Of a DNA stretch of 64,000 nucleotides, positions 19,324-63,547 are shown one piece after another. The notes under the pieces are model-generated. The model was not told where the DNA came from. It made no database searches and saw nothing but the letters and a program-made list of their open reading frames with translations. Numbering within the stretch: the stretch's first letter is position 1; each line of letters starts with the position of its first letter. The position numbers and the translations under genes are program-made. The DNA is from Simplicispira sp. 125 (lineage in GTDB: Bacteria; Pseudomonadota; Gammaproteobacteria; Burkholderiales; Burkholderiaceae_C): assembly GCF_003096555.1 (NCBI RefSeq), contig NZ_QEKM01000001.1, forward strand, positions 2,666,001 to 2,730,000. Reading direction: 5' to 3'.

Positions 19324-20454
19324 ATGCCCCTTTCACACCTTGCCCGTTTTTGCGTCTACAGGCCCCTCGCCTTTGCGGGGTTTTTCGTCCTGGCAGGCTG
19401 CGCGCATGGCGACAGTGCATTGGCGTACTACTGGCAGTCCGTGCGCGGCCATGTCCAGATCATGCAGGCCGCTCAGCCGCTGGAGGCCTGGATCGCGCGC
19501 GACGACCTGGCCCCGGCCCTGCGCGAGCGCCTGCGCCTGGCACAACGTGCCCGGGACTTTGCCGTGACGGAACTGGCCATGCCCGACAACGACAGCTACC
19601 GCCGCTACGCCGACCTGCAACGACCAGCCGCTGTCTGGAACGTGGTGGCGGCGCCGCCCTATGCGCTGCAGTTGCACACTTGGTGCTTTCCGGTGACGGG
19701 CTGCATTGGCTACCGGGGCTACTTCAGCGAAGCCGATGCCCAGGCCGAGGGCGCACGCCTGGCTGCGCAGGGGCTCGAGGTCGAGGTGTATGGCGTGCCT
19801 GCCTATTCCACCCTGGGTTACATGAACTGGGCCGGTGGCGACCCGCTGCTGAGCACCTTCATCGGCTGGCCCGAGGGCGACTTCGTGCGCCTGTTGTTCC
19901 ACGAGCTGGCACACCAGGTGGTGTATGCCAGCGGCGACACGCTGTTCAACGAATCTTTTGCCACGGCTGTGGAGCGCCTGGGCAGCGCCCAATGGCTCGC
20001 CACACAGGCCACGCCCCAGGCCCGCGAGGCCTTTGCCGCCAGCCAAGCGCGGCGCAACCAGTTCCGCGCCCTGACGCGGACGACACGCGCACGTCTGCTC
20101 GAAATATACACATCAAATCAGTCTCAAACGCTTGATGAGAAAGCGCTATCAGCTATGAAAACAGAAGCGATGGATGCGTTCCGCAGGGACTATGCCGCAC
20201 TGCGCAGCCACTGGCACGCCCCCCCTGCACAACAGGCCGGCTACGACCGATGGGTAGAGCACGCCAACAACGCCAGCTTTGCTGCGCAGGCCGCCTATGA
20301 CGAATGGGTTCCAGCCTTCGAAGCGCTGTTTGAACAGTCGGGACGGCGCTGGCAACCGTTCTATGATGCAGTCAAAGAACTGACTGCATTGGCGCAGCCG
20401 GTGCGCGCCGAGCGTCTGCGTGCCCTGTTACCTGTCAACGCCAGCCCCCATTGA
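19324..20454 (+). CDS. Putative lipoprotein zinc aminopeptidase (PF10023-like)
   Basis: This 376-residue predicted outer-membrane lipoprotein has the lipobox FFVLAGC at about 20-26. The zinc-peptidase motif HELAH occurs in LLFHELAHQVVYASGDTLFNE at about residue 197, with a downstream Glu in FNESFATAVERLG as third ligand or partner. The family is annotated as predicted aminopeptidase; the substrate is unknown. Codons at about 262-280 are encoded by a copy of the interspersed palindrome, an in-frame insertion in a helical region. Start ATG 19324 lies 13 bases after the half-MFS gene. Confidence 0.85.
   Translation: MPLSHLARFCVYRPLAFAGFFVLAGCAHGDSALAYYWQSVRGHVQIMQAAQPLEAWIARDDLAPALRERLRLAQRARDFAVTELAMPDNDSYRRYADLQRPAAVWNVVAAPPYALQLHTWCFPVTGCIGYRGYFSEADAQAEGARLAAQGLEVEVYGVPAYSTLGYMNWAGGDPLLSTFIGWPEGDFVRLLFHELAHQVVYASGDTLFNESFATAVERLGSAQWLATQATPQAREAFAASQARRNQFRALTRTTRARLLEIYTSNQSQTLDEKALSAMKTEAMDAFRRDYAALRSHWHAPPAQQAGYDRWVEHANNASFAAQAAYDEWVPAFEALFEQSGRRWQPFYDAVKELTALAQPVRAERLRALLPVNASPH
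20111..20164 (-). repeat. Interspersed palindrome inside the aminopeptidase gene
   Basis: Read on the minus strand this stretch shows the blocks ATAGCT, AGCGCTT, AAGCGTT and a GACTGA block with the spacing found in the intergenic copies. It is in frame within the host gene and encodes part of a Ser/Gln/Lys-rich segment (SQTLDEKALSAMKTEA). Confidence 0.75.
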
Positions 20455-20465
20455 GGAGACGCAAC

Positions 20466-20798
20466 ATGTCCATGATCCACATCCACCGCCACCACCACCT
20501 GGGCATGCCCGAGGCCCGCAAAATCGCCTTCCTATGGGCCGAACAAGCCGAGGAAAAATTCGACATGGAATGCGCCTACGAAGAAGGCGACACCCAGGAC
20601 ACCGTGTATTTCACCCGTGCCGGCATCAAGGGCACCTTGCAGGTGCTGGGCGACCAGTTTGAGTTCAAGGCCGAGCTGGGTTTTCTGGTCAGCGCTTTCA
20701 AGGCCCGCATCGAGACCGAGATTGCCGAGCAGCTCGACACGCTGCTGCACCCGCCCAAGGTCGGCAAGAAAAAGAAACCAGCGGCGCCCAAGGCCTGA
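20466..20798 (+). CDS. Polyhydroxyalkanoic acid system family protein (PHA_gran_rgn)
   Basis: This 110-residue protein opens MSMIHIHRHHHLGMPEARK and has a basic tail KVGKKKKPAAPKA. The pattern matches the small PHA-granule-associated family (PF09650) of betaproteobacteria. Start ATG 20466 follows GAGGAG at 20453-20458. The precise role in polyhydroxyalkanoate storage is not established. It ends just before a strong bidirectional terminator. It is near the acyl-CoA-binding and WS/DGAT genes, which also concern acyl storage. Confidence 0.82.
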   Translation: MSMIHIHRHHHLGMPEARKIAFLWAEQAEEKFDMECAYEEGDTQDTVYFTRAGIKGTLQVLGDQFEFKAELGFLVSAFKARIETEIAEQLDTLLHPPKVGKKKKPAAPKA

Positions 20799-20822
20799 GG
20801 GCCGGGCAACACCCGCCTGTGC

Positions 20823-20862
20823 GCACGCAAAAAAGCCCTCGAAAGAGGGCTTTTTTGCGTGC
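20823..20862. terminator. Bidirectional rho-independent terminator
   Basis: A perfect 18-bp stem (arms 20823-20840 and 20845-20862) closes on a GAAA tetraloop. The GC core AGCCCTC/GAGGGCT is flanked by A6 and T6 runs, so it can terminate transcription from both sides: the PHA protein gene on plus and the small minus-strand gene at 20886-21056. Confidence 0.93.
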
Positions 20863-20885
20863 GGCGATCCGCGCGTTGCGAGCGG

Positions 20886-21056
20886 TCAGCCGCCCTTTTT
20901 CGAGCGCTTGCCCGGGTTCTTTTTGCTGCGTGTGGCCACGCCGCGCTCCAGGCTCACGCGCTGGCCACGACCGCTGGTGGGCAGGCTCATGCCTGGCAGC
21001 GGCTTGGGCTGGGGGGTGAATTTACGGTCTGCTTCGGTAACGATCTTGTTGCCCAT
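20886..21056 (-). CDS. Small basic protein of unknown function
   Basis: This 56-residue protein begins MGNKIVTEADRKFTPQPKPL and has a strongly basic tail (RSKKNPGKRSKKGG). Start ATG 21056 is the most plausible; ATG 21090 is also in frame. The high Lys/Arg content suggests nucleic-acid or ribosome association, but I recognise no family. It is convergent with the PHA protein gene across the bidirectional terminator. Confidence 0.55.
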   Translation of the reverse strand: MGNKIVTEADRKFTPQPKPLPGMSLPTSGRGQRVSLERGVATRSKKNPGKRSKKGG

Positions 21057-21148
21057 GGCGAAGTCTCTGTCAATGGTTGGAAAACCCATATTAGGCCATA
21101 GGCGCGGGGCAAGGCCTCCAAAGGCCCTGCCCGGGCCCTGGCCAGCGA

Positions 21149-21403
21149 TCAGCTCAGTGACTGGATGAGGTCGATGTACTGCTGCTTGGCGGCGTCCAGT
21201 TCGGTGCCCTTGAGCTTGCTCCAGGCGTCCCACTTGGCACGGCCCACCATGTCGGAAAAACTGGGCTTCTTCTCGGTGTTGTCACCTGCGGTGCCTTGCT
21301 TGTACAGCGCATAGATGCTGAGCAGCGTGGCGTTGTCTGGGCGCTCGCTGAGGTTCTTGGATTGGGCTACGGCAGCTTCGAAAGCGGCGTTGAGATCAGC
21401 CAT
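21149..21403 (-). CDS. Acyl-CoA-binding protein (ACBP)
   Basis: This 84-residue four-helix protein binds acyl-CoA esters in the cytoplasm. Signature stretches are SIYALYKQGTAGDN, KWDAWSKLKGTELDAAKQQYI and a C-terminal IDLIQSLS, a full-length ACBP. A good AGGAG site precedes ATG 21403. It is divergent from a WS/DGAT acyltransferase that consumes acyl-CoA, so the two may share regulation and substrate flux. Confidence 0.95.
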   Translation of the reverse strand: MADLNAAFEAAVAQSKNLSERPDNATLLSIYALYKQGTAGDNTEKKPSFSDMVGRAKWDAWSKLKGTELDAAKQQYIDLIQSLS

Positions 21404-21548
21404 GGTCAGATGCTCCTGGGTTCAGGGGGTGGGAAAAAACGGGGGAGCCAACCCCCTGCAACGATGTATCTTACGGCTACGCTGCGGCCACAATGGCGAA
21501 AATCCATAGACGCCCGCCTCCAATGACAACCCTCAGGACCTTCCGCAC

Positions 21549-23135
21549 ATGGTGACCCGCATCCCTTCACGCGCCGCCGCAGGCACGCCCGCCGCCCCCA
21601 CGGATCAGCCCAGCGCCAGCAACGTCGCACGCGACGCCGCCCTGGCCATGCAAAAAACCGTGCGCCGCGCCGCCAGCGGCATGCTGGGCCTGTCGGGCGA
21701 GCGCATGAGCAAAGTCGATACCGCCTGGCTGCGCATGGATTCGGACAGCAACCTGATGATGATCAACGGCGTGTGGACCGTCGCGCCCGGCATTTCGCTC
21801 CAGGCCCTGCAAGAGCGGGTGCAGCAGCGCCTGCTGCAGTACCCGCGCTTTCGCCAGCGCGTGGTCGAGGACGCCGCAGGCGCCACCTGGGTCGAGGACC
21901 AGCGCTTTGACATCGACGCCCACGTGCAGCGCATCACACTGCCCCGGCGCCGGGGGGGCAGCCAGCAGGCAGCGCTGCAAAATTTTGTGGGCGACCTGGC
22001 CATGAAACCGCTCGACCCCCGGCGCCCGCTGTGGCACTTTTATCTGGTGGAAGATTTCGTGGGCGACGATGGCCTGCCGGGCAGCGCCCTGGTGGTGCGC
22101 CTGCACCACTGCATTGCCGATGGCATTGCCCTCATCTCGGTCACCATGTCGCTGGTGGACGGGGGTACAGAGCCCCCCAAACGCCGCAAAAAGACCGCAG
22201 CCAACGCCGAGGCCTGGATTGCAGACACGCTGATCAAGCCCTTCACGGGCATGACCGTGAAAGCGCTCGACCTGGTGGGCGAGAGCGCCGCCAAATCGCT
22301 GCACATGCTGCTCGACCCCGAAAAGGCCGTGCAGCACGGCCTGGCCGGTTCGATGGACGCGGCCCGCCTGGGCTACCAGCTCCTCAGTGATGCGGCCGCA
22401 CTGGCCCTCATGCCCGATGACTCCCCCACGCTGCTCAAGGGCATGCCCGGCAACGCCAAGCGCGTGGCCTGGTGCCCGCCGCTGCCGCTCGACGAGGTCA
22501 AGGCCATCGGCAAGGCGCTGAACTGTTCGGTCAACGACGTGTTGCTGTCCTGCGTGGCCGGCGCCATCGGCAGCTACCTGCGCCGCCACGGCGACGACAC
22601 CGCGGGCAAAGAAATCCGCGCCATGATCCCGGTGAACCTGCGGCCCATGGAAGAGGCCTGGAAGCTGGGCAACCATTTCGGCCTGGTGCCGCTGGTACTG
22701 CCCATCGGCATCACCAACCCGATCGAGCGTGTGTATGCAGTGCGCAGCCGCATGGCCGCGCTCAAGGGCAGCACGCAGCCACTGCTGGCGTTTGGCCTGC
22801 TGGCCGTGGCCGGCCTGCTCATCAAGCCGGCGCAGGACGCCCTGCTGGGCCTGTTCAGCCGCAAGACCACGGCCGTGATGACCAACGTGCCCGGCCCGCG
22901 CGAACCGCTGGCGCTGTGCGGCTCGCGCGTGACGCAGTGCATGTTCTGGGTGCCCCAGTCGGGCCATGTGGGCCTGGGCGTGTCCATTCTGAGCTACGGC
23001 GGCGGCGTGCAGTTTGGGGTCATCACCGACACCCAGCTGTGCCCCGAGCCCCAGCAAATCATCGACGCCTTTGCACCCGAATTCGCCGCGCTTTCTACCC
23101 TCACGATGATGCTGCCGTGGGGCGAGGAAGAGTAA
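21549..23135 (+). CDS. WS/DGAT-family O-acyltransferase
   Basis: This 528-residue protein is of the bifunctional wax ester synthase/diacylglycerol acyltransferase family. The catalytic HHxxxDG motif is present as RLHHCIADGIAL at about residues 183-194. Other family stretches are RMDSDSNLMMING near the start of the domain, PLWHFYLVED and the C-terminal TNVPGPREPLALCG. It would esterify a fatty alcohol or diacylglycerol with acyl-CoA to form storage lipid. About 40 extra residues precede the domain. ACBP is encoded divergently 145 bases away. Its 3' end overlaps the start of a DUF922 gene. Confidence 0.93.
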   Translation: MVTRIPSRAAAGTPAAPTDQPSASNVARDAALAMQKTVRRAASGMLGLSGERMSKVDTAWLRMDSDSNLMMINGVWTVAPGISLQALQERVQQRLLQYPRFRQRVVEDAAGATWVEDQRFDIDAHVQRITLPRRRGGSQQAALQNFVGDLAMKPLDPRRPLWHFYLVEDFVGDDGLPGSALVVRLHHCIADGIALISVTMSLVDGGTEPPKRRKKTAANAEAWIADTLIKPFTGMTVKALDLVGESAAKSLHMLLDPEKAVQHGLAGSMDAARLGYQLLSDAAALALMPDDSPTLLKGMPGNAKRVAWCPPLPLDEVKAIGKALNCSVNDVLLSCVAGAIGSYLRRHGDDTAGKEIRAMIPVNLRPMEEAWKLGNHFGLVPLVLPIGITNPIERVYAVRSRMAALKGSTQPLLAFGLLAVAGLLIKPAQDALLGLFSRKTTAVMTNVPGPREPLALCGSRVTQCMFWVPQSGHVGLGVSILSYGGGVQFGVITDTQLCPEPQQIIDAFAPEFAALSTLTMMLPWGEEE

Positions 23136-23701
23136 CAGCCGCGCTCTGCACGGCCCCGGCAGTTGCGCTGCTGCTGGCCTGCAGCATGGCCTTTGCGGAG
23201 GTCACGGAAGAACACGCCGAGCAGCCGTACACGGTGGACGTCCCGCCTGGCCAGACACTGCGCCAGGCCCTCAATGCGGCCACCCCCATCCGCGAGGGCG
23301 GGCAGCGTTTTCATGGCCATACGCAGTGGAACGTGCACTGGAATTTCTGGTGGAACCGTGATGCGGCCGGGCACTGCCGCATCGCCCGCGTCAGCACACG
23401 GCTGTCCACCCGCATCCAAATGCCCGTGCTGCGCACCGCCAGCGATGCACAGCAGGCCCGGTTCGCACGCTATGCCCGGGCCTTGCACCAGCACGAGCAG
23501 GGCCATGTGCAGTTCGGCCGCCGGGCCGCGCAGTCCATCGACCAGGGCATCGCCGCCCTGTCCGAGGCCCCGGACTGCCCCACTCTGGAGCGGCAAGCCA
23601 ATGCATTGGGCCACCGCTTGCTGGCAGAACAGGCCGCGCTGGAAAAAACCTACGACCGCGACACACGGCATGGTGCAACACAAGGCGCACAGGTTGATTG
23701 A
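23117..23701 (+). CDS. DUF922-family secreted putative zinc protease
   Basis: This predicted exported protein of 194 residues has a signal peptide (VTAALCTAPAVALLLACSMAFA) followed by a DUF922-like domain with the metal-binding motif HEQGH (about residue 127) in LHQHEQGHVQFG, and TPIREGGQRFHGHTQWNVHW. I chose GTG 23117, which overlaps the WS/DGAT stop and gives a short basic n-region. ATG 23186 is the only ATG nearby but would remove the signal peptide. Activity and partner are unknown. The 3' end abuts an interspersed palindrome. Confidence 0.75.
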   Translation: MGRGRVTAALCTAPAVALLLACSMAFAEVTEEHAEQPYTVDVPPGQTLRQALNAATPIREGGQRFHGHTQWNVHWNFWWNRDAAGHCRIARVSTRLSTRIQMPVLRTASDAQQARFARYARALHQHEQGHVQFGRRAAQSIDQGIAALSEAPDCPTLERQANALGHRLLAEQAALEKTYDRDTRHGATQGAQVD

Positions 23702-23760
23702 TGCTATATATTTTATAGCTTATAGCGCTTACCGGATAAGCGCTTGAGCCCTAAAACACT
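23702..23760 (+). repeat. Interspersed palindrome (intergenic copy)
   Basis: The core AGCGCTTA (23724-23731) and TAAGCGCT (23737-23744) form a perfect 8-bp stem with loop CCGGA. ATAGCT lies three bases 5' of the core and a GCCCTA block three bases 3' of it, matching other copies. It fills the whole gap between two convergent genes, where it may serve as a terminator-like structure. Confidence 0.88.
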
Positions 23761-23761
23761 A

Positions 23762-24856
23762 TCAATCAAGCCCCTGCACTGCCTGGAACAAGGCCTGCCG
23801 CGCCTGGGCAATGATCTGGCCTTTCCAGGCATCGGTGTCGGTGCAGAAGGCCGCCAGCATCTGCGCCTTGATCTGTGCTGCCAATGCTGTCGGCGCCTCC
23901 GGGTGGATGTGAAGCCAATGCTCGGCACGCAGCGCCTGCAGCATGTCCAGAATGGGCAGGGTGCCGTACTCCATGGCAATGCCGGTGTACTGGGCTTGCG
24001 GACATTCGTCGTAGATGGCGGTCCACATCAGGCCCGTCAGAAACGCTGAAGTGGACGTTCCATCGTAGAACGAGGTAATGGGTGTCGCTCCGTTGCCCCC
24101 CCACCATTGGCGGGCACGCGCAAGGGCGGCAGGATCGTCGCGCCCGGCATAGATGCGCTCGCCATGGCCGCTGGGCCCCAGGCCGGTGTGCAGGTCAATC
24201 CAGCCGATGCGCTGGGCCCGGCTGCCATGCTGGCGCAGCACCTGGCGCAGGGTGCGGTTGCTCCAGGTGGGCGCCGTGCCGCCAAAGAACATCCCCTGCG
24301 CAAATTCATGCTGCCCCTGCGAGATGGCGGCCTGCCAGGCCGCTTCGCCCCGGGTGGCGATGAACTGCTCCACCGCCGCTACGTTGTCGGCTGCAGGCGG
24401 CCAGGTGGACGGCAGCAAAAAGGGCTCGACCTCGCGGTAGGCCTCATTGACCGGCAAGGGGCGGCTGAAGTCCTGGAAGTTGCGGTTCAAATCCACGTTT
24501 TCGTGCGTGGTGCGGCGGGTGTGCGAGAAGCCATAGGGGTTGAGCGCGTGGATATAGAGCACGGCCACGCCGTGCGCGCGCGCTTCTTCGCGCCAAGCGG
24601 CATCGTGCAGCGCATAGACCTGCACACCGCTGCCGCAATACCCCTCGACCCCGTGGCAGGCGCTGCTGACGATCAGCAGCTTTTCGGCGTCCGGTGGGCC
24701 GTCGCGCACAACGTCCATGGCCAGGTCTTCCCCATCGCGCCCCTTGAGCGGGTGGGCGTGCGACTCGATCGGCAGCCCGGCGGTGGCCGCGGCCTCCAGA
24801 AACTGCACGCGGGCGCGGGCGTAGCTGCCAGCAAAGGCGTCGGTGATCCCGATCAT
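23762..24856 (-). CDS. DUF2817 family protein (M14 carboxypeptidase-like)
   Basis: This 364-residue protein has the M14-like zinc pattern of DUF2817: SACHGVEGYCGSG (His/Glu ligand pair), NVDLNRNF and the distal IDLHTGLGPSG. It has no signal peptide, so it is probably cytoplasmic and acts on small peptides or modified amino acids. It starts at ATG 24856, overlapping the stop of the M20 hydrolase by ATGA; the two hydrolases form a translationally coupled pair that may act on the same substrate. Confidence 0.9.
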   Translation of the reverse strand: MIGITDAFAGSYARARVQFLEAAATAGLPIESHAHPLKGRDGEDLAMDVVRDGPPDAEKLLIVSSACHGVEGYCGSGVQVYALHDAAWREEARAHGVAVLYIHALNPYGFSHTRRTTHENVDLNRNFQDFSRPLPVNEAYREVEPFLLPSTWPPAADNVAAVEQFIATRGEAAWQAAISQGQHEFAQGMFFGGTAPTWSNRTLRQVLRQHGSRAQRIGWIDLHTGLGPSGHGERIYAGRDDPAALARARQWWGGNGATPITSFYDGTSTSAFLTGLMWTAIYDECPQAQYTGIAMEYGTLPILDMLQALRAEHWLHIHPEAPTALAAQIKAQMLAAFCTDTDAWKGQIIAQARQALFQAVQGLD

Positions 24857-26064: not shown

Positions 26065-26245
26065 GGACGGTAGCTCCTTCTTCGCAACAGTCTACCCATG
26101 CCGGAGAGGCTGTGGGCCAGGAGCAAACTCTGCCCAGCACGGCGAATGGTTATCAACCCCCAGCACGGCGACGCCACGGGCCCTTGCCATCACGCGGCAA
26201 CCGCCGGTTCGCGGTCATCGGCCCGCCAACACCGCGCACCTGCGT

Positions 26246-27814
26246 CTACAGCGCCTTGCGCAAAGTGGTTGTGGGTATCTTGAGCGCTTCGCGGTATTTG
26301 GCCACGGTGCGGCGTGCACACTCGATGCCTTGTTCCTTGAGCATGTCTGCCAACTGGTTGTCGGACAGCGGCTTGGCAGGGTTTTCGGCGGCGACGAACT
26401 GCTTGATGAGCGCGCGCACGGCCGTGCTCGACGCATTGCCGCCGGTGTCGGTGCCCAGGCCCGAGCCGAAAAAATACTTGAGCTCGTAAGTGCCCTGCGG
26501 CGTGGCCATGTATTTGGCCGTGGTCACGCGCGAGATGGTGGATTCATGCAGGCCCAGCTCGTCGGCGATATCGCGCAACACCAGCGGCCGCATGGCCAGT
26601 TCGCCATGCACGAAAAAATTTTTCTGCCGCTCGACGATGGCGCGCGAGACACGCAAGATGGTGTCAAAGCGCTGCTGGATGTTCTTGATGAACCAGCGCG
26701 CCTCCTGCAGTCGCTGCTGCAAGGCCTGGTGTCCATCCCCCCCTTTGTGGCCGCGCAGGGCTCCGGCATAGATGTCGTGCACACGCAGGCGCGGCATCAC
26801 ATCGGGGTTGAGCTGCACATTGAACTGCTGGCCACTGCGGCCCACACGGGTCACGAGCACATCGGGAATCACGATGTTGCGCTCCACATCAGCAAAGCGA
26901 CGCCCGGGGCGCGGTTCGAGCCGGGCGATCAGGGCCATGGCGGCGCGCGTGCGCTCTTCGCTGGTGCCACACAGCGCAACGAGGCGGCGCACATCACGGC
27001 GTGCCAGCAACTCCAACGGTTGCCGACAGATGCACAGCGCGTTCTGCACTGTGCTGGGATTTTCAACGCCGTCCTGGAGCAGTGCCTGGAGTTGCAGGGT
27101 GAGGCATTCCGCCAGATTGCGCGCCCCCACACCGGAGGGCTCCAGACTTTGCAGCAGCCGCAGCGCCACGGTGAAGCGGTGCACCAGCTCTTCGATCTGC
27201 TCCAGATCGCTCTCGCCTGCCAGCCCCAGGGCCAGGGATTCCAGGGAATCCTCCAGATAACCGTCGTCGTTCAACGATTCGATCAGGTATTGCAGCGCAG
27301 CCCGGTCCAGTGCCGACAGGCGCAGCGCCAGTGCCTGTCGGTGCAGAAATGCCGTGAGCGACTCATGGCCATGCGCCAAATCGGCAGCGTCGGCTTCGCT
27401 GTCGCCATCGCTGCTGCCGTTGTTGCGCGCAGGGGCGTCGCCCCCCCATTCGCCATCGTCTGCGGCCATCTCCGTGGTGCCGTCGCCGCCCCAGTCGGGT
27501 TCATCGGAGGCACCCACAGAATCCGCATCATTTCTGCCTTCAAGGCTTGATGTACTTACGCCATCAGCTCCTGAATAAATAGCAACCTCAGCCGCCGCAT
27601 CGTCCCCTTGTGCAGGTACGTCGGACTGGGCCAGACCGAACTCCTCGCGCGGCGCATCTTCCGTATTGCGTTCGAGGAAAGGGTTTTCATCGAGCATCTG
27701 CTCGATTTCCTGCGACAGCTCTTGCGTGGAAAGTTGCAGCAGGCGGATGGATTGCTGCAGCTGCGGCGTCAGTGCCAGATGCTGCGAAACGCGCAGTGAG
27801 AGACCGGGCTTCAT
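26246..27814 (-). CDS. rpoN: RNA polymerase sigma-54 factor RpoN
   Basis: This 522-residue alternative sigma factor recognises -24/-12 promoters and needs AAA+ activators. Region I is the Gln/Leu-rich MKPGLSLRVSQHLALTPQLQ. An acidic variable region II spans about 50-175. The core-binding domain follows, and the C-terminus carries the RpoN box ARRTVAKYR. Start ATG 27814 matches the conserved N-terminus; the longer frame would translate the repeats upstream. Region II contains residues encoded by a copy of the interspersed palindrome (about 76-93). It lies downstream of lptA-lptB in the usual order. No hpf gene follows; an M20 gene does. Confidence 0.97.
   Translation of the reverse strand: MKPGLSLRVSQHLALTPQLQQSIRLLQLSTQELSQEIEQMLDENPFLERNTEDAPREEFGLAQSDVPAQGDDAAAEVAIYSGADGVSTSSLEGRNDADSVGASDEPDWGGDGTTEMAADDGEWGGDAPARNNGSSDGDSEADAADLAHGHESLTAFLHRQALALRLSALDRAALQYLIESLNDDGYLEDSLESLALGLAGESDLEQIEELVHRFTVALRLLQSLEPSGVGARNLAECLTLQLQALLQDGVENPSTVQNALCICRQPLELLARRDVRRLVALCGTSEERTRAAMALIARLEPRPGRRFADVERNIVIPDVLVTRVGRSGQQFNVQLNPDVMPRLRVHDIYAGALRGHKGGDGHQALQQRLQEARWFIKNIQQRFDTILRVSRAIVERQKNFFVHGELAMRPLVLRDIADELGLHESTISRVTTAKYMATPQGTYELKYFFGSGLGTDTGGNASSTAVRALIKQFVAAENPAKPLSDNQLADMLKEQGIECARRTVAKYREALKIPTTTLRKAL
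27535..27585 (-). repeat. Interspersed palindrome inside rpoN
   Basis: On the minus strand the stretch begins GCTATTTATTC and contains GAGCT, a degenerate GGCGT/AAGCCT core and an AGGC block, aligning with the intergenic copy at 48444-48502 over the left half. It is in frame with rpoN and encodes part of the acidic variable region (VAIYSGADGVSTSSLEG). It is more degenerate than the other copies. Confidence 0.65.
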
Positions 27815-27842: not shown

Positions 27843-28095
27843 GTTTTGCCGCCGGGTCGCCCCAAGGCAAAACGCGACCCCCTTGGGGGGCAGCGACCAC
27901 ACAAAGTGAGGGAGCGTGGGGGCTATGTTTTGCCGCCGGGCCGCCCCCAAGGCAAAACGCGACCCCCTTGGGGGGCAGCGACCACACGAAGTGAGGGAGC
28001 GTGGGGGCTATGTTTTGCCGCCGGGCCGCCCCAAGGCAAAAAGCGGCCCCCTTGGGGGGCAGCGACCACACGAAGTGAGGGAGCGTGGGGGCCAC
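27843..28095. repeat. Triple tandem array of an 84-85 bp GC-rich unit
   Basis: Three near-identical units (27843-27926, 27927-28011, 28012-28095) fill the lptB-rpoN gap. Each contains TTTTGCCGCCGGG, CGCCCCAAGGC, CCCCCTTGGGGGGCAGCG and GAAGTGAGGGAGCGTGGGGG. CGCCCCAAGG and CCTTGGGGGG can pair into a hairpin. The same unit occurs once, inverted, at 9007-9095. Differences between copies are a few substitutions and one inserted C. Confidence 0.93.
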
Positions 28096-28097
28096 AC

Positions 28098-34686: not shown

Positions 34687-34756
34687 GGGCGCCAATTATG
34701 GAGACAAACCCCCAGAACGAATCATGCGCACATCATGTGCAAGGCTTAAGAGATAT

Positions 34757-34815
34757 GGCTCAAATTAGCCTCTAGCGCTTATTCAATAAGCGCTAACAGC
34801 TATGTATTCAATAGC
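34757..34815 (-). repeat. Interspersed palindrome (intergenic copy)
   Basis: The core TAGCGCTTAT (34773-34782) and ATAAGCGCTA (34786-34795) is a perfect 10-bp stem with a three-base loop, the best-preserved stem of the family. ATAGCT and GGCTA blocks flank it in the minus-strand reading. It lies upstream of the LysR gene. Confidence 0.9.
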
Positions 34816-34841
34816 ATTCGCGGCTGTGACTTCAGAAACGC

Positions 34842-35155: not shown

Positions 35156-37363
35156 ATGACCGATCGCACCACCGTCCACGGCCTGCAAGTGGCTACTCCC
35201 CTGCTCCGCTTCATCGAAGACCAGGTTCTGCCCGGCACCGGCATCGACAAGGCAGTTTTCTGGAAGGGCTTTGACGCCATCGTGACCGACCTGGCGCCGC
35301 GCAACCTCGCCCTGCTGGCCGAGCGCGACCGCCTGCAGACTGAGCTGGACACCTGGCACAAGGCCAACCCCGGCCCCATCAAGGACATGGTGGCTTACCG
35401 TGGCTTCCTGGAGAAGATCGGTTACCTGGTGCCTCAACCTGCCAACGTGCAGACCACCACGGCCAACGTAGATGACGAACTGGCCGTGCAGGCCGGCCCA
35501 CAGCTGGTGGTGCCCATCCTGAACGCCCGCTACGCCCTGAACGCCGCCAACGCACGCTGGGGCAGCCTGTACGACGCGCTGTACGGCACGGATGCCATTC
35601 CCGAGACCGATGGCGCCGAAAAGGGCCAGGGCTATAACCCCGTGCGTGGCGCCAAGGTGATTGCCTTTGCGCGTGACGTGCTCGACCAGTCGGCCCCCCT
35701 GGCCAGCGGCTCGCACAAGGACGCCACCGGCTACCGCGTGGAGAATGGCCAGTTGGTGGTCTCGCTGGCGGGCGGCAGCACCGGTCTGAAAGACCCAGCA
35801 CAGTTCAAGGGCTACCAGGGCGACGCTACCCAGCCCACATCGGTACTGCTGCAGCACAACGGCCTGCACCTGGACATCCAGATCAACCGCAGCACGCCCA
35901 TTGGCAAATCTGACGCAGCAGGCGTCAGCGATGTGGTGCTGGAAGCGGCCCTGTCCACCATTCTTGATCTGGAGGATTCGGTCGCCGCCGTGGATGCCGA
36001 GGACAAGGTGCTGGGTTACCGCAACTGGCTGGGCATCATCCAGGCGACCCTGACCGAACAGGTCGCCAAGGGCGGCAAGACCTTTACCCGTGGCCTGAAC
36101 CCCGACCGTCTGTACACCGCACCCAATGGCGCCGCCGAGGCCGTGCGCCTGCATGGCCGCTCGCTCATGTTCCTGCGCAACGTGGGCCACCTGATGACCA
36201 ATCCGGCCATCCTGTACACCGACGCGCAGGGCGTTCAGCGCGAGATTCCCGAAGGCATCATGGACGCCGTGGTCACCACGACCATCGCGCTGCACGACCT
36301 GCAGGGCCATGGCAAGGACGGCATCCGCAACTCGCGCAAGGGCAGCGTCTACATCGTCAAGCCCAAGATGCACGGCCCGGCCGAAGTGGGCTTTGCCGCC
36401 GAGCTGTTCGGCCGCGTCGAAAAGCTGCTGGGCTTGCCAGACAGCACGGTCAAGCTGGGCATCATGGACGAGGAGCGCCGCACCTCCGTCAACCTCAAGG
36501 CCTGCATTGCTGCCGCACTGAGCCGTGTGGCGTTCATCAACACGGGTTTCCTCGACCGCACAGGCGACGAAATGCACACCGCCATGCACGCGGGCCCGAT
36601 GATCCGCAAGGGCGACATGAAGACCAGCGCCTGGATTGCCGCCTACGAGAAGAACAACGTGCTGGTCGGCCTCTCGTGCGGCCTGCGCGGCAAGGCGCAA
36701 ATCGGCAAGGGCATGTGGGCCATGCCCGACCTGATGGCCGAAATGCTCAAGCAGAAAATCGCCCACCCCAAAGCTGGCGCCAACACTGCCTGGGTGCCCA
36801 GCCCCACTGGCGCAACGTTGCATGCCCTGCACTACCACCAGGTCAACGTCAGCGACATCCAGATGGAGCTGGAAAAAACCGACTTCAACGCCGTGCGCGA
36901 CGACCTGTTGACCGGCCTGCTCACCATCCCCGTTACCGCCAGCCCGAACTGGAGCGACGCCGAAATCCAGCAGGAGCTCGACAACAATGCGCAAGGCATT
37001 CTGGGTTACGTGGTGCGCTGGGTGGACCAGGGCGTAGGCTGCTCCAAGGTGCCCGACATCCACAACGTCGGCCTCATGGAAGACCGCGCCACGCTGCGTA
37101 TCAGCAGCCAGCACATGGCCAACTGGCTTTTGCATGGTGTGGTGAGCGAAGGCCGCATCCAGGCGACCTTCCAGCGCATGGCCGCCGTGGTGGACCAGCA
37201 AAATGGCAGCGACCCGCTGTACCAACGCATGGCGGGCAACTTCGAGACCAGCATGGCTTACAAGGCCGCGTGCGAACTCGTTTTCAAGGGCCTGGAGCAG
37301 CCCAGCGGCTACACCGAGCCCCTGCTGCACGCTTGGCGTCTGAAGGTCAAGGCGGCATCCTGA
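35156..37363 (+). CDS. glcB: Malate synthase G
   Basis: This 735-residue cytoplasmic enzyme condenses glyoxylate with acetyl-CoA to malate (glyoxylate/glycolate pathway). Its length and sequence match the G isoform, not the 530-residue A isoform. Recognisable stretches are [20 protein letters not shown], the catalytic [44 protein letters not shown] and [14 protein letters not shown]. Start ATG 35156 follows AAGAAGG. It is monocistronic, with its own terminator. Isocitrate lyase is not in the window. Confidence 0.97.
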
Positions 37364-37372
37364 GCCTCACGA

Positions 37373-37432
37373 ACTATCATGTTGATAGCTTCTAACGCTT
37401 GACAGTAAAGCGCTGGAGGCTATTTTTATAGA
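37373..37432 (+). repeat. Interspersed palindrome (intergenic copy) after malate synthase
   Basis: The plus strand shows GATAGCT, AACGCTT, AAGCGCT and GGCTA blocks with spacers of 3, 7 and 3 bases, then a T-rich TATTTTTATAG. It starts ten bases after the glcB stop and precedes the glcB terminator. Confidence 0.87.
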
Positions 37433-37438
37433 AAACAA

Positions 37439-37458
37439 ACGGCGCCTTCGGGCGCCGT
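37439..37458 (+). terminator. UUCG-loop hairpin, probable glcB terminator
   Basis: ACGGCGCC (37439-37446) and GGCGCCGT (37451-37458) pair around TTCG, an especially stable tetraloop. The following TGTGCCTT is only weakly T-rich, so termination may be partial. Confidence 0.7.
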
Positions 37459-40348: not shown

Positions 40349-40363
40349 GCTGCGCTGTAAGAG

Positions 40364-40477
40364 CCTGACGATGACCTACTTTCACACGGGAACCCGCACT
40401 ATCATCGGCGCAAAGTCGTTTCACGGTCCTGTTCGGGATGGGAAGGAGTGGTACCAACTTGCTATGGTCATCAGGCA
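40364..40477 (-). rRNA. rrf: 5S ribosomal RNA
   Basis: The minus strand begins TGCCTGATGACCATAGCAAG and ends GTAGGTCATCGTCAGGC, with complementary ends (TGCCTGA/TCAGGC) and internal CCCATCCCGAACAGGACCG, diagnostic of 5S rRNA. The length is about 114 bases; the ends are approximate to a few bases. Confidence 0.95.
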
Positions 40478-40598
40478 TAACTTGGTGCTGGGCAGTTTTT
40501 GAGGACTGCCTGGCGAATTCATAGAGTTTGGAATCAGCTTATATTTTGATTGCGACAACTTGGCATAACATCCCTGATCTGGAGAGATCAAAGTTATA

Positions 40599-43477
<2,879 letters not shown>

Positions 43478-43720
43478 CTATAACTTTGACGTCTCTTGCG
43501 AAACATCTCCATCTAATTTTTCAAGGACTTGCAAGGTCTTTCACCTTGCGCGTTATGCCGTAATATGAATGTTTCTTCGGTATTGCTACCTAGAGAACAA
43601 TTCGTCATTACTTGAATAAAACAAAGTTTCATTCGTGTTGACGCAATCAAATTTCATGTTGCTGATGGCACGGTGCATCTTTCGATGCTTTCCATCAGCA
43701 ACGCTGATTCGACTCTATGA

Positions 43721-43734
43721 ATTTTTAAAGAACA
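43721..43734 (-). promoter_or_regulatory. boxA-like antitermination element in the 16S-23S spacer
   Basis: The minus strand reads TGTTCTTTAAAAAT between tRNA-Ala and 23S, close to the boxA consensus for NusB/S10 antitermination. Confidence 0.7.
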
Positions 43735-43831
43735 GCCGATTGATCGAACTATCTCGATCAACAACAAAACAGCCTTTTGCAAAGCTGCTTTGGTGTTGAT
43801 TTGCTGCACTGCCTTGTGCAACTTTGGATGT

Positions 43832-43907
43832 TGGTGGAGGATGACGGGATCGAACCGACGACCCCCTGCTTGCAAAGCAGGTGCTCTCCCAGCTGAGCTA
43901 ATCCCCC
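43832..43907 (-). tRNA. tRNA-Ala (anticodon TGC)
   Basis: The minus strand starts GGGGGATTAGCTCAGCTGGG, has the anticodon loop CTTTGCAAG, the T-arm GGTTCGATCC and an encoded CCA end. It is 76 bases long and located in the rRNA spacer. Confidence 0.96.
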
Positions 43908-43946
43908 AGGAACCGCATTGTCTTCTCACGTGTCGCCCGCAGCACT

Positions 43947-44023
43947 TGGTGGGTCTGGGTGGTCTCGAACCACCGACCCCCGCCTTATCAAGACGGTGCT
44001 CTAACCAACTGAGCTACAGACCC
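43947..44023 (-). tRNA. tRNA-Ile (anticodon GAT)
   Basis: The minus strand starts GGGTCTGTAGCTCAGTTGGT, has the anticodon loop CTTGATAAG, the T-arm GGTTCGAGACC and an encoded CCA end. It is 77 bases long and is transcribed before tRNA-Ala in the spacer. Confidence 0.96.
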
Positions 44024-44125
44024 AGGCCTGCCTCTACTCACTCACATGCTTTCACATATGCGCTTGCAGCGACTTTTTCCAACAACCGATAAGTGTGGGC
44101 GTTCAATTAGAACTGCAGTTTTCCA

Positions 44126-45659
<1,534 letters not shown>

Positions 45660-48378: not shown

Positions 48379-48443
48379 GGGCAGCATCCGGTTACTCGTG
48401 CCAGCGGCAAAGCTGCACAACGCAGCACTCTCTTGCACAAAAT

Positions 48444-48502
48444 TGCTATTTAAATAATAGCTGATAGCGCTTACGGGTAAAGCGAAAGAGGCTAAAAACA
48501 CT
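48444..48502 (+). repeat. Interspersed palindrome (intergenic copy) between benE and kup
   Basis: The plus strand shows GCTATTTAAAT, AATAGCT, AGCGCTT, AAAGCG and GGCTA blocks in the family order. The right core arm is one base imperfect. It lies in the promoter region of benE. Confidence 0.87.
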
Positions 48503-48535
48503 TCAAAAGAGGTGAAAGCCCCCCCGCAGCGTGCC

Positions 48536-54931: not shown

Positions 54932-56212
54932 TCAGGCACGCACTTCGCCTTCGCCCAGCACAACGTATTTGAGCGAGGTCAGGCCTTCGATCCCCACAGG
55001 CCCGCGCGCATGGAATTTGTCGGTGCTGATGCCGATCTCGGCGCCCAGCCCGTATTCAAAACCATCGGCAAAGCGCGTGCTGGCGTTGACGATCACGCTG
55101 CTGGAATCCACCTCGCGCAAAAACTGCTGGGCATGCCTGTGGTCAGAGGTGAGGATGGCCTCGGTGTGGTGGCTGCTGTACTGGTTGATGTGGTCAATGG
55201 CTTCCTGAACGCCCGCCACCACGCGGATGGAGATGATGGGCGCGAGGTATTCCTCAGACCAGTCCTGCTCGGTGGCATCGACCAGTTTCGCTCCCGAAAC
55301 AGGAGCTAACAGCGCCCTGCTTTCGGCGCAAACCCGCATTTCCACCCCTTTTTCCGCGAAGATGCTGCCGATGCGGGGCAGGAATGCCGCGGCCACGCCG
55401 CGCGCCACCAGCAGGCTTTCGCTGGCGTTGCAGGGGCTGTATTTCTGGGTCTTGGCGTTGTCGGCTACGCGCACGGCCATGTCGAGGTCACAGGGGTCGT
55501 CCACATAGGTGTGGCAGTTGCCGTCCAGGTGTTTGATGACGGGCACTTTGGCGTCCGCGCTGATGCGCTCGATCAAACCCTTGCCACCGCGCGGAATGAT
55601 CACATCCACATACTGCGGCAGGGTGATGAGTTGGCCCACCACTGCGCGGTCGGTGGTCTGCACCAGTTGCACGGCATCCTGCGGCAAACCCGCCTCGGCC
55701 AGCGCCTGCTGCACCAACCGGGCCAGCGCCTTGTTGGAGTCGATCGCCTCGGAGCCGCCACGCAGGATGCAGGCATTGCCACTCTTGATCGACAAGCTGG
55801 CCGCCTCGATGGTGACGTTGGGACGGCTCTCGAAAATCATGCCGAACACACCAATCGGCACGCGCATCTGGCCCACGCGGATGCCGCTGGGCTGCTGTTT
55901 CATGCCGATGATCTCGCCAATGATGTCGGGCATGGCGGCCAACTGCTCGCAGCCCTGGGCGCAGGTCTCCAGCACCTGGGGTGTGAGCTTGAGGCGGTCC
56001 ACCAGGGGCTCGGCCAGGCCGGCGGCGCGGGCGCGCTCCAGGTCACGCGCGTTGTCCTGCTGCAGCGCCGGGGTTTGTTCGCGCAGCAAGCGCGCCAGCG
56101 CACGCAGCGCTTTGTTTTTGATAGCTGCTGGCGCTTTAGCCATAAGGGCTGAAGCCACTTTTGCCTGCAAACCGAGGGTCTGGGTGTATTCGGAGACGTT
56201 GAGGGCGTTCAT
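54932..56212 (-). CDS. proA: Gamma-glutamyl phosphate reductase
   Basis: This 426-residue enzyme makes glutamate-5-semialdehyde for proline synthesis. It has [36 protein letters not shown], the catalytic-cysteine region [14 protein letters not shown], and the C-terminal [19 protein letters not shown] and [10 protein letters not shown]. Start ATG 56212. Two stretches of the gene (about residues 17-33 and 292-309) resemble the interspersed palindrome. proA, the arginase gene and the ornithine cyclodeaminase gene within 5 kb all feed proline/ornithine metabolism. Confidence 0.96.
55285..55335 (+). repeat. Possible degenerate palindrome copy inside proA (weak)
   Basis: The plus strand shows CAGGAGCT, three bases, AGCGC, then a CGGCGC right arm. 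The left part aligns with the rpoN copy, but the right half is poor. It encodes [14 protein letters not shown] in proA. Confidence 0.35.
56113..56162 (+). repeat. Possible palindrome copy inside proA, N-terminal part
   Basis: The plus strand shows GATAGCT, three bases, GGCGCTT, seven bases, AAGGGCT, then a poorly matching GCCAC block. The left half matches the family at 13 of 14 block positions. It encodes [15 protein letters not shown], a region that is naturally Ala/Lys-rich in ProA, so chance or codon-level resemblance is possible. Confidence 0.45.
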
Positions 56213-56428
56213 GCCTGGATTCTGCCGCAGTTAGCGCCCGCGCAACGCCTGGCCCACGCCTTCCCTACAAGCCGGGCGAGAACCGGTGCCTTATTCACCC
56301 TGGGCGCACGCCCAGCGCCTCCTCCTACGCCGTGGTGCGTTCACCGCTGACAGACGAATCGCGGCACAGAACTAGCATGGAAAGCTCACTGGCAAGCTGT
56401 TTTGCCATCCCTTTACAGGAGATTTCCC

Positions 56429-56638: not shown

Positions 56639-56702
56639 GTTCGCCCTGTGCCCGCGCAGCTTGTATGGGTCGCGGGCGACTCACACCAGCGCGTGTCACC
56701 CA

Positions 56703-57752: not shown

Positions 57753-57944
57753 GGGCGGCAGTGTATCGCCCCGCCCTGGTGCGGCCAGTGCACTCGGCCC
57801 CTCAGCAGCGCCCTTGATTGCGCATAGCGCTATTTTTCACTGGCAAAGTGCATTGCATCCTGCAGTAATTGCACAATTTTCTCACTTTTCTTTGGCCGCG
57901 CCCTTGCGGAGAATTCTCTGCATACACAAGATAAGGAGACCATC

Positions 57945-60471: not shown

Positions 60472-60760
60472 ATCAATGATCCTAGAAACGGCAGTTGGAT
60501 GTGCCCGCCGGTGCCGTGATCTGGGTGTCAGGCAAGGCGAGACGACGCGGCAGGCTCCTACCCACAAGGAGGAGCAACGCCGCATAGCGCTCTGAGCGCA
60601 GTGCTGACGGGTGCATAGCGCTCCCACCCATCAGGTGAACACCATCGAAGCCATCAACGATAGCTTTCATGCGGCTTAGCAAGAGATACAAAGCGGTCAA
60701 CTGCTGTCTCTAGGATGGCCCATTGCACTACGCGCCACCCACGACGCATGAAACAGGCGC
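60472..60760. other. Gene-free stretch between lptE and leuS
   Basis: No convincing gene is visible on either strand. The stretch contains the direct repeat GCATAGCGCTC (near 60583 and 60613). It is followed at 60761 by a GC-rich repeat that runs almost to the leuS stop codon. Together they break what is usually a compact leuS-lptE junction. Confidence 0.6.
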
Positions 60761-60858
60761 GGCCCAGGCCAGCGGCCCCCGTGCAAGGGCCGCCCCGCCG
60801 CACTGGGGGCGTCCCCCTGCGAGAGCGGGGGGAAGGAGCGCAGCGACACAGGGGGGCG
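60761..60858 (-). repeat. Intergenic repeat, GGCGGGGCGGCCC family, copy 2
   Basis: On the minus strand this reads GGGGGACGCC, then GCGGCGGGGCGGCCCTTGC, ending GGCCTGGGCC, the same block order as 12605-12718. The hairpin region differs in sequence but keeps complementary GC-rich arms. Confidence 0.75.
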
Positions 60859-60865
60859 TTTCACT

Positions 60866-63547
60866 TCATACCACCACGTTGACCAGGCGCCCGGGCACCA
60901 CGATCACGCGCTTGGGAGCGGCGCCGCCCGCATGGGCCACAAAGACCTCGCTGGCCACGGCAATGCGCTCGATCTCGGCCTTATCGGCCTGTGCCGGCAC
61001 CTGGATGGCGCCGCGCAGCTTGCCATTGACCTGCAACACCAGTTCGATTTCGTCCTGCACCAGCGCATCGGGCGCCACCTGTGGCCAGGGTGCGTCGAGC
61101 AGATCGCCCAGGTGCTGTGCGTAGCCCAGCTGGCTCCATAAGCCGTGCGCGATGTGCGGCGTGGCCGGGTACAGGCAGCGCAGCAAAATGCCAAAGCCTT
61201 CGATCAGTGCCACCTGTGCGCCCGCGCAATCCAGGGCCTTGAAGTCTTCGAGCGCATTGATCATCTTCATCGCGCCCGAGACCACGGTGTTGTACTGCAT
61301 GCGCTGGTAGTCGTAGTCCACCTGCTTGAGCACGGTGTGGATCTCCAGGCGCAGGGCCTTGGCCTCCTTGCCAAAATTTACATCTTTTAGGCTTGTAGCG
61401 CCCGCCACACTTGCGCTGGCAGCTACACCATCCATAGCAGCCAGTTTGAAACCGAAGTTCCAGACTCGGCGCAGGAAACGGTAGCTGCCTTCGACGGCGG
61501 CATCGTTCCATTCCAGCGTGGCTTCGGGCGGCGAGGTGAACATGGTGTACAGGCGAGCGGTGTCGGCGCCGTACTTTTCAATCAGGTCCTGCGGGTCCAC
61601 GCCATTGTTCTTGGACTTGGACATGGTGCCCACGCCCTCGTAGTCGATGGCGGTGCCCACGGGCAAATCACCCACGGCGTTGACCAGCCGGGCACCGACG
61701 ACCTTGCCCGCCGCGTCGTGGACATGCTCCACGTCGTGCGGCCAGAAATACTCCTTGCCACCCTTGTCGGTGCGGCGACTGTAGATATGGTTGAGCACCA
61801 TGCCCTGCGTGAGCAGTTTGGTGAAGGGCTCATCGACCTTGACCAACCCCAGGTCGCGCATCACCTTGGTCCAGAAGCGCGCGTACAGCAGGTGCAGGAT
61901 GGCGTGCTCGATGCCGCCGATGTACTGGTCCATCGGCATCCAGTAATCAGCACCTTCGGCCACCATGGCCTCGGTGTTCTTCGGGTCGCAGTAGCGCATG
62001 AAGTACCACGAGCTGTCGACGAAAGTGTCCATGGTGTCGGTCTCGCGCCGCGCGGCCTTGCCGCAGACCGGGCAGACGACACCGGCGTGGAAGCCTTCAT
62101 GCTTGTGCAGCGGGTTGCCCGAGCCGTCGGGCACGCAGTCGGTGGGCAGCACCACCGGCAGGTCTTTTTCCGGCACCGGCACGGCGCCGTGCTCGTCGCA
62201 ATGGATGATGGGGATGGGCGTACCCCAGTAGCGCTGGCGCGAGACGCCCCAGTCGCGCAGGCGCCAGGTGGTCTTGAGTTCGCCCAGGCCCTTTTCGCCC
62301 AGCGCATGGGCCACGGCCGCCACGGCGTCCTTGTACGACAGGCCACTGAAGCTGCCGGAGTTGACGGTGACGCCGCGCTGCTTATCGGCGTACCAGTCAT
62401 TCCACTGGTGGTAGTCGAAAGTCTCGCCATCGACCAGCACCACCTGCTTGATGTCGATGCCGTACTTGAGGGCAAAAGCAAAGTCGCGCTCGTCATGCGC
62501 AGGCACACCCATCACGGCGCCGTCGCCATAGCCCATGAGCACATAGTTGCCCACCCACACGGCCACCTGCTCGCCGGTCAGTGGGTGGGTGACGAACAGG
62601 CCCGTGGGCACGCCCTTCTTCTCTTGGGTGGCGAGCTCGGCCTCGGTGGTGCCGCCGCTCTTGCATTCTTCGATGAAGGCAGCCAGCGCGGGGTTGGTCT
62701 TGGCTGCGTGGGTGGCGAGCGGGTGCTCGGGCGCCACGGCGCAGAAAGTGACGCCCATGATGGTGTCGGCGCGCGTGGTGAACACGTACATTTTGCCGCC
62801 GCCGATCAGCGCCCCATCCGTGCCGTGGATGGTGTGCGGGAAGGCGAAGCGTACGCCCTCACTCTTGCCGATCCAGTTCTCCTGCATGAGCTTGACGCGC
62901 TCGGGCCAGCCGGGCATTTTGTCACCGGCCACATTGGCCAGCAGTTCTTCGGCGTAACCGGTGATCTTCAGGTAGTAGCCGGGAATTTCGCGCTTTTCCA
63001 CTGGCGCGCCGGTGCGCCAACCCTTGCCGTCAATGACCTGTTCGTTGGCCAGCACCGTCATGTCCACTGGGTCCCAGTTCACGGTCTGGGTCTTGCGGTA
63101 GGCAATGCCTTTTTCCAGCATTTTCAAGAAAAGCCACTGGTTCCACTTGTAATAAGTGGGGTCGCAGGTGGCAATCTCGCGGCTCCAGTCGATGGCCAGG
63201 CCCATCGCCTGCATCTGCTTCTTCATGTAGGCGATGTTGTCGTAGGTCCACTGCGCCGGTGGCACGCTGTTTTTCATCGCGGCGTTCTCGGCCGGCAGGC
63301 CAAACGCATCCCAACCCATGGGCATCAGCACGTTGTAGCCGTTCATGCGCAGGTAGCGCGTGAGCATGTCGTTGATCGTGTAGTTGCGCACATGGCCCAT
63401 GTGCAGCTTGCCGCTGGGGTAGGGCAGCATGGAGCAGGCGTAGAACTTCTTTTTGCTGCTGTCTTCGGTCACGCGGTAAGCGTCGCCGTCCGTCCAGTGC
63501 GCCTGCGCGGCGCGCTCGACCTCAGTGTGTTGGTATTTGTCTTGCAT
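60866..63547 (-). CDS. leuS: Leucyl-tRNA synthetase
   Basis: This 893-residue class I synthetase has the HIGH-type motif [14 protein letters not shown] at about residue 48, a CP1 editing domain ([21 protein letters not shown]), a zinc-like [18 protein letters not shown] region, and KMSKS-type [14 protein letters not shown] at about 640. Start ATG 63547. Residues at about 702-722, in the linker between catalytic core and anticodon-binding domain, are encoded by a copy of the interspersed palindrome. Confidence 0.97.
61381..61440 (-). repeat. Interspersed palindrome inside leuS
   Basis: On the minus strand the blocks GCTAT, GTAGCT, AGCGC, GCGCT and GCCTA occur in the family order. The copy is in frame and encodes [19 protein letters not shown] in an inter-domain linker, a plausible tolerated insertion. 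Confidence 0.7.

Follow-up and report, generated by a model that had tools for sequence, protein, structure and literature searches.

The 64,000-bp stretch of the Simplicispira sp. 125 genome analyzed here (hereinafter the window; positions 2,666,001 to 2,730,000 of a 3.97-Mb single contig) contains copies of a 71-bp palindromic element similar to repetitive extragenic palindromic (REP) sequences and their hairpin-forming doublets (REPINs), which is located not only between genes but also, in frame, within about 6% of the called genes, including rpoN, leuS and proA. Most of the coding copies that were compared with homologs are length-neutral or nearly so, and their route into the genes is therefore in question. 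The presence of a palindromic element inside genes, initially noticed from the letters of the window alone (hereinafter the sequence-only reading), is confirmed, whereas the interpretation proposed there is partly supported. The explanation that we favor, at somewhat better than even odds, is that the element represents a long-lived REP/REPIN-like family that multiplied in Comamonadaceae chromosomes as discrete copies, which then remained stable at their sites for a very long time.

Sequence and copy number of the element

A pattern search for the core AGCGCTT-N(3-8)-AAGCGCT yielded 66 matches in the 3.97-Mb genome, with a spacer of 7 bases in every core match listed; the reversed core pattern gave a single match in the same genome with loose spacing and 0 at a spacing of 7. 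A 71-column profile was started on 21 strict copies and refined with a 464-kb sample of the genome (the window and 20 stretches of 20 kb each) and 15 further loci. With this profile, 83 matches scoring at least 8 bits were detected in the 464 kb, 80 of them at 20 bits or more, whereas three equally large order-3 Markov nulls yielded 0 matches at 6 bits or more. The density in the sample is thus one element per 5.6 kb, which extrapolates to about 700 copies per genome (a whole-genome profile listing, with 150 matches scored among 1980 candidates, is not the basis of this estimate).

The sequence-only reading described an element of 50-60 bp with palindromic blocks; the repeated palindrome is real but the unit is 71 bp long, with the consensus nnTGCTATnAATTTnATAGCTGCTAGCGCTTnnnnnnnAAGCGCTAGAGGCnAATTTnACnnnAAA and AT-rich flanks. 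The information content is about 59 bits across the 71 columns, and 52 copies can be aligned without gaps, although these were picked with an ungapped profile, so that indel-bearing copies would be missed. The arms are conserved whereas the loop and the encoded protein vary, and a half-profile scan of the sample shows that 5' half elements are confined almost entirely to full copies. At two places in the genome (L003 and L011), the element and its flanks are identical across the 101 bases shown, probably reflecting a duplicated region.

Copies within protein-coding genes

Genes were called with a purpose-written codon model (392 genes covering 87% of the sample), which places 52 of the 83 copies between genes, 28 within coding sequences and 3 at gene edges. 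When scored with a profile derived from 42 intergenic copies alone, 25 of the 28 coding copies rank above each of 600 synonymous recodings of the respective peptide; the 3 that fail (L020:12221, L018:10968 and L023:3637) are all located at the ends of called genes. For the four complete coding copies in the window, this profile gives 68.7, 56.5, 34.1 and 32.4 bits, and the best of 600 recodings of these four peptides score 39.1, 19.8, -0.8 and 0.0. Together, the recodings and the Markov nulls rule out chance or codon bias as the source of the matches. The distribution of the best scores per gene with the intergenic profile (called genes of at least 300 bp) has two peaks, with 22 genes scoring between 29.7 and 81 bits, one at 9, and the next at -9 and lower. 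Accordingly, about 6% of the called genes carry the element in their coding sequence (22 of 392, genes shorter than 300 bp being left unscored), and these include, in addition to rpoN, leuS and proA, also priA, truB and dapF.

The element is read preferentially in one frame: 19 of the 26 coding copies that score at least 24 bits are in phase 0, or 19 of 24 without the two that failed the recoding test. This preference is due to stop avoidance. In phase 0, the consensus is free of stop codons when read on the opposite strand and has a single one, located in the loop, when read on the same strand; of the remaining frames, one on the opposite strand has a single stop, within the AT-rich end, whereas there are 4 stops in each of the three others. 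A DsbD-like gene (L035:8515-10728) harbors two copies, one in what by eye resembles a signal peptide and the other in a probable membrane helix.

Copies in the window

The window encompasses 8 full copies, with scores of 42 to 80 bits for the 71-column profile. The four intergenic copies that the sequence-only reading placed at 23702, 34757, 37373 and 48444 were all recovered, at 67.4-80.0 bits. The highest-scoring one (34748..34818, minus strand; 80.0 bits; fold z of -4.2 on the plus strand and -2.5 on the minus strand) lies between divergent genes, and the next one (23700..23770, plus strand; 72.6 bits) between convergent genes, with an orthologous copy in the relative G213 that scores 72.2 bits and is within 1 bp in length. 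The copy at 37370..37440 (plus strand; 69.4 bits) follows directly 3' of the stop codon of the gene at 35156-37363 (plus strand), and the one at 48442..48512 (plus strand; 67.4 bits) is flanked by two minus-strand genes and is shared, at the corresponding position, by 7 relatives but missing in 5.

Among the coding copies, those proposed at 20111, in rpoN at 27535 and in leuS at 61381 are indeed in frame and above all 600 synonymous recodings. The first (20101..20171, minus strand; 71.6 bits) lies within a peptidase-like gene (19324-20454, plus strand) that shows no match to any NCBIfam family, so that the earlier name, aminopeptidase, is not confirmed; the copy is present in all 12 orthologs found in the same genus, at 47-70 bits, and the protein is 3 to 4 amino acids longer here than in 10 sequences from other families. 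The copy in rpoN (26246-27814, minus strand), a gene name borne out by an NCBIfam match of the protein, is located in a variable region near the N-terminal part (27516..27586, minus strand; 42.6 bits), and the copy in leuS (60866-63547, minus strand) covers codons 704-721 (61371..61441, minus strand; 41.7 bits). The candidate at 56113 in proA (54932-56212, minus strand), previously considered weak, is in fact a full copy over codons 17-35 (56106..56176, plus strand; 57.9 bits). The other weak candidate in this gene, at 55285, is real but consists of a 5' half only (55287..55317, plus strand; 14.1 bits with the half profile; hereinafter proA site 2) and is the sole solitary 5' half of at least 13 bits in the coding DNA of the sample. 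The suggestion that coding copies fall in linkers or variable regions thus holds for RpoN and the peptidase-like gene but not for ProA 17-35, which is a gap-free stretch.

Insertion versus equal length

The comparison of orthologous sites shows that new copies can insert. At proA site 2, there is a clean in-frame insertion: the relative G200 carries a full copy and is 57 bp longer than 18 other genomes of the genus, including the one analyzed here, and G207, also with a full copy, is 54 or 55 bp longer than 17 of those 18 (the difference from G204 is 2 bp, via a different segment pair). Length-adding gains were also observed between genes. The copy at L227:8113, in G203 and G211, adds 81 to 85 bp, and the copy at L220:5098 is present only in G210, with a shorter spacer in 7 of the 8 relatives compared and a much longer one in G141. 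At other sites with a copy missing in some genomes, the length differences are highly uneven (from -152 to +564 bp at the 48442 site) and uninformative either way.

For about nine genes, chosen by eye as conserved-looking, we compared the local length with that of solved homologs. Relative to the best of these, TruB gains 4 residues, TilS and LeuS 6 each, ThiL 7, a flavoprotein 8, a xanthine-dehydrogenase-like subunit 2 to 5, and DapF 10 to 11. In PriA (residues 149-166), there is a gain of about 0 residues at the element, with 3 fewer just beyond it; the element is superimposed on the conserved motif LSxEQxxA such that variable residues coincide with the arms and the Glu-Gln pair with the free loop. 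This copy is present in all 14 carriers examined, the genome analyzed here included, at 16-70 bits, and missing in G201 and G202. In the probable membrane helix of the DsbD-like protein (residues 589-606), the alignment is gap-free within the element and the peptides are much alike, with ortholog scores from -51 to 40 bits. The basal relatives G204, G209 and G216 score -50 at this site, which, together with the tree of relatives described below, suggests one gain followed by decay in some lines. In the linker of a gene that is ExbB-like by eye, the copy in G203 and its sister G211 changes the length by only -12 to +15 bp compared to eight relatives without it.

LeuS is ambiguous with respect to insertion: the Delftia and Tepidimonas proteins are of equal length without the motif, whereas the best solved homolog and the Variovorax protein are shorter by 6 and about 10 residues, respectively. 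More generally, alignment with homologs revealed residues that are missing in relatives at proA site 2, whereas at ProA 17-35, PriA 149-166 and the DsbD-like helix, genomes that lack the element encode an identical peptide or one of equal length, an outcome that the sequence-only reading had named as counting against it. The proposal that a mobile element is being domesticated as peptide thus fits proA site 2 and perhaps TruB, TilS, ThiL, DapF and LeuS but not ProA 17-35 or PriA, and is not supported as a general account. The near-length-neutral coding copies may have been inserted and later trimmed or may have replaced resident DNA directly, ProA 17-35 and PriA being the hardest cases for insertion.

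Conservation, and loss of the element in one clade

In 15 of 80 leuS loci, the copy is found at the equivalent position with a score of 15 bits or more (2 are ambiguous, at 1.8 and 6.8 bits, and 63 negative), and the carriers include Acidovorax delafieldii, Rhodoferax antarcticus, R. bucti, Curvibacter delicatus and a Polaromonas metagenome-assembled genome. Across 200 family genomes drawn evenly, the strict core was detected in 35, from 27 of 141 genera, with a patchy distribution even inside a single genus; a plasmid search returned 3 records (Diaphorobacter, Comamonas and Acidovorax). The leuS loci and the plasmid records substantiate the link to Comamonadaceae drawn in the sequence-only reading. 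A pattern scan of viral contigs gave 54 matching stretches.

Among the carriers, synonymous codon identity within the RpoN element is 0.885 compared to 0.644 outside (0 of 518 windows along the gene are higher), with a low amino-acid identity of 0.52; the corresponding values for the peptidase-like gene are 0.763 and 0.659 (30 of 354 windows higher), all of these being pairwise counts among related, and hence non-independent, genomes.

Three relatives, G201, G202 and G205, contain 1 match in 101 kb, an AT-rich one that we judged spurious, as opposed to 106 matches in 580 kb of 16 other relatives (the stretches were chosen around rpoN and proA, so that the carrier density may be slightly high). 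In a tree of RpoN and ProA with the element regions masked, these three genomes are nested among carriers (support 99/98), with G207 as the sister, followed by G200, which indicates that this clade has lost the element, with decay through point changes. At ProA 17-35, its members share 0.87 amino-acid identity with the carriers at a synonymous codon identity of 0.306, compared to 0.591 outside, and score -6 to -13 bits; thus, the peptide is kept while the DNA consists of ordinary codons. Ten sequences from other families score -15 to -50, further from the motif. The insert at proA site 2 (L236:10865) is present in G200 and G207 and absent in the clade beside G207, where the length is the same as in the other genomes; a precise deletion, a transfer event or two separate origins might account for this pattern. 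The nested clade provides a natural comparison, so that both the route into genes and the balance between host benefit and the element's own spread become testable.

Genomic context and hairpin structure

Both neighbors were called for 51 of the 52 intergenic copies. Convergent gaps are preferred, with 17 of the 51 copies compared to 26 of 213 gaps of at least 60 bp (odds ratio 3.6, p = 0.0006), and divergent gaps are avoided (3 of 51 compared to 44 of 213, p = 0.013); 38 of the 51 copies are located within 40 bp of the 3' end of a gene. Among the 150 matches listed, even spacing along the chromosome was not seen.

The predicted hairpins are more stable than those of shuffled sequences in 3 of the 4 intergenic copies of the window. 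Conservation of an RNA structure by compensating changes was suggested by a substitution of GCTAT/ATAGC by GCTCC/GGAGC in proA but not borne out: the 95 copies examined show no Watson-Crick excess on the stem diagonals. Because compensating changes are lacking in these 95 copies, it is the sequence letters, rather than the pairing, that seem to be kept. There are 5 close pairs among the 83 copies, which form longer doublets, and in 4 of these pairs, the copies are 39 bp apart in opposite orientations. In the doublets at L018:12281-12390, L016:3582-3691, L017:18302-18411 and L034:17429-17538, two inverted 5' halves surround differing insides; the inside of the first of these doublets is a long near-perfect hairpin.

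Origin and spread

The favored explanation, a long-lived family of discrete copies, draws on the discreteness of the copies, the length-adding gains, the preference for gene 3' ends, the favored frame in each orientation, the conservation of the RpoN codons and the loss in one clade. Under this scenario, single strands able to form hairpins, placed by some enzyme, would give rise to new copies, and those within genes would persist only when a stop-free frame is available and the protein tolerates them. Subsequently, the host loop would shrink around the element; alternatively, for ProA 17-35 and PriA, the strictest cases, equal-length resident DNA would have been replaced. The arms could be upheld at the DNA level either via selection exerted by a protein that binds them or by conversion among the copies, with the 7-base loop left free.

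Several observations weigh against this explanation. The whole element encodes 18-24 residues and most coding copies compared add 0-11. Target duplications, of the kind that mark MITEs, could not be defined, the boundaries being too diverged. In the element-free clade, the RpoN peptide is not kept (identity 0.24) and, among carriers, ProA 17-35 shows no synonymous excess (0.701 compared to 0.691 outside; 162 of 408 windows higher); the non-independence of all such codon counts adds to these doubts. Furthermore, a mobilizing enzyme was not found: the only REP-type transposase gene of the genome does not track the element, being present in the element-free G201, G202 and G205, not found in the carrier G141, and represented in the carrier G220 by an IS200-sized match only, and its conserved flanking repeat is of a different, GGGGTCAGA type.

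Some of the observations on length fit an alternative route, length-neutral overwriting, in which hairpin copies in single-stranded form pair with short matching stretches at replication gaps and take the place of the resident patch; short-patch recombination of this type is known in Acinetobacter baylyi. ProA 17-35 aligns without gaps with PDB 4ghk, a Burkholderia enzyme (alignment over 423 residues), and with 10 of 10 sequences from other families. This gap-free alignment, the placement of the PriA copy over a conserved motif with Glu-Gln in the free loop, and the small length change in the ExbB-like linker are in line with overwriting. However, the DNA is lengthened at proA site 2 and by several of the intergenic gains, old copies may have inserted and then been trimmed, no recent replacement was caught, and a search of the accessible literature found no paper on the mechanism. 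We consider overwriting unlikely as an explanation in its own right, and it is doubtful that the element spread into genes mainly by this route, with the element-derived peptide capable of outliving the DNA motif, as in ProA of the element-free clade. Overwriting overlaps with the favored explanation, such that the odds assigned to the different readings sum to more than one.

Alternatively, the element could be a functional DNA site, such as an uptake signal or the binding site of a chromosome-organizing protein, that spreads as selection or drive acts on point mutations. Such a site would account for conserved arms combined with a variable loop and encoded protein, for superposition on conserved peptides, for the intermediate ortholog scores in the DsbD-like helix, and for the loss in a clade whose codons are unlike those of the carriers. 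The amount of information argues to the contrary: about 14 bits suffice, by simple arithmetic, for some 700 sites, compared to the roughly 59 bits present. Partial matches are nearly absent, some gains add length, and there is no strand bias along the chromosome (p = 0.81 among the 150 matches listed). The distribution of comEC, the only competence gene tested, shows no correlation with the element: it occurs in carriers as well as in G201 and G202, which lack the element (it was not found in the incomplete G205), and this speaks against a competence link via this gene. On balance, a functional site of this kind appears improbable.

It is still less probable that the element is a REPIN mobilized by the resident REP-type tyrosine transposase. 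The single Y1 transposase match in the genome (L251:3397-4104, minus strand; 235 residues) reaches 75.2 bits for the NCBIfam family REP_Tyr_transpos, below the cut-off of 80, and an element-like sequence of at least 20 bits is present at the 3' end of its gene in 13 of the 16 carriers examined; the palindrome and the inverted doublets are also in line with this possibility. However, apart from the failure of the gene to track the element, elements occur at many gene ends regardless. Moreover, the transposase gene occurs in most of the genus members searched, and AATTGGGGTCAGAnTCnAATTA-like repeats flank it in most of these, the element-free clade included, and in one other family; the GGGGTCAGA type of flanking repeat resembles the terminal inverted repeats with GGGGWSAS described in the accessible part of PMC3733652.

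Finally, the repeated emergence of bidirectional transcription terminators or of structures at mRNA 3' ends would fit the 3'-end and convergent preference and the hairpin stability but is very improbable given that copies between co-directional genes show no clear orientation bias (18 same, 13 opposite), base-pair covariation is absent in 95 copies, and about one third of the copies are inside genes.

Relationship with known repeat families

A search of the accessible literature found no paper describing the 71-bp element. According to the accessible part of PMC2229807, Rickettsia palindromic elements are 105-146 bp long and occur both between genes and in frame within conserved genes. The likeness to these protein-coding palindromes, noted in the sequence-only reading, holds in that our element is palindromic, with intergenic and in-frame coding copies (PMC2229807, PMC3733652, each as far as accessible). 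It differs in its length, in the estimated hundreds of copies, and in that most coding copies compared add 0-11 residues; in-frame insertion of the Rickettsia type, with the residues missing in relatives, is seen in G200 and G207 at proA site 2, whereas at ProA 17-35 and in PriA it is not.

REPs, as described in the accessible part of PMC3733652, prefer gene 3' ends and convergent gaps, form doublets and are found within truB, DNA ligase and tRNA synthetase genes; our element is likewise a short palindrome with the same preferences, doublets and genic copies, including one in truB. However, neither of the tetranucleotides of the GTAG/CGTC REPs nor their complements were found in its consensus by inspection, and the unit is 71 bp. 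None of the terms Comamonad-, Acidovorax, Polaromonas and Rhodoferax appears in the main text of PMC3733652, and in the accessible parts of two Rhodoferax papers (PMC2755013, PMC5374385), only CRISPR is discussed. REPINs are characterized in the accessible parts of PMC3116915 and PMC8049555 as extragenic, composed of inverted halves, and maintained as long-lived copy populations. The two inverted halves that form a hairpin and the longevity of the copies are shared with the system of REPINs and REP-associated tyrosine transposases (REPIN-RAYT), whereas the 28 of 83 copies called coding (25 confirmed) and the lack of a cognate tyrosine transposase that goes along with the 71-bp repeats are not. 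Because these defining features were tested for and not found, we do not classify the element with REPIN-RAYT or the GTAG/CGTC REPs.

DNA uptake sequences occur in hundreds of copies, including genic ones, with preferred frames; the 71-bp element, by contrast, is far longer and discrete, with few partial matches and some insertions.

The accessible part of PMC3110155 describes BRE as a repeat of about 90 bp (69% G+C in Bordetella) with up to 29 copies, often in tandem, that is found in Bordetella and Comamonadaceae, with some coding copies. The family Comamonadaceae and the coding copies are common features, whereas size, G+C content, arrangement and copy number differ, a distinction drawn from the published description only. 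Immediately upstream of rpoN (window positions 27846-28095), there are about three tandem G+C-rich repeats of about 90 bp that recall BRE by length, G+C content and order.

An Rfam search gave 0 matches at E <= 1 in the segment 34600-37600, which encompasses two copies of the element, and the gathering-level matches in the window are limited to rRNA and tRNA. The window also contains a complete rRNA operon (40363-45659, minus strand) with 5S, 23S, two tRNAs and 16S.

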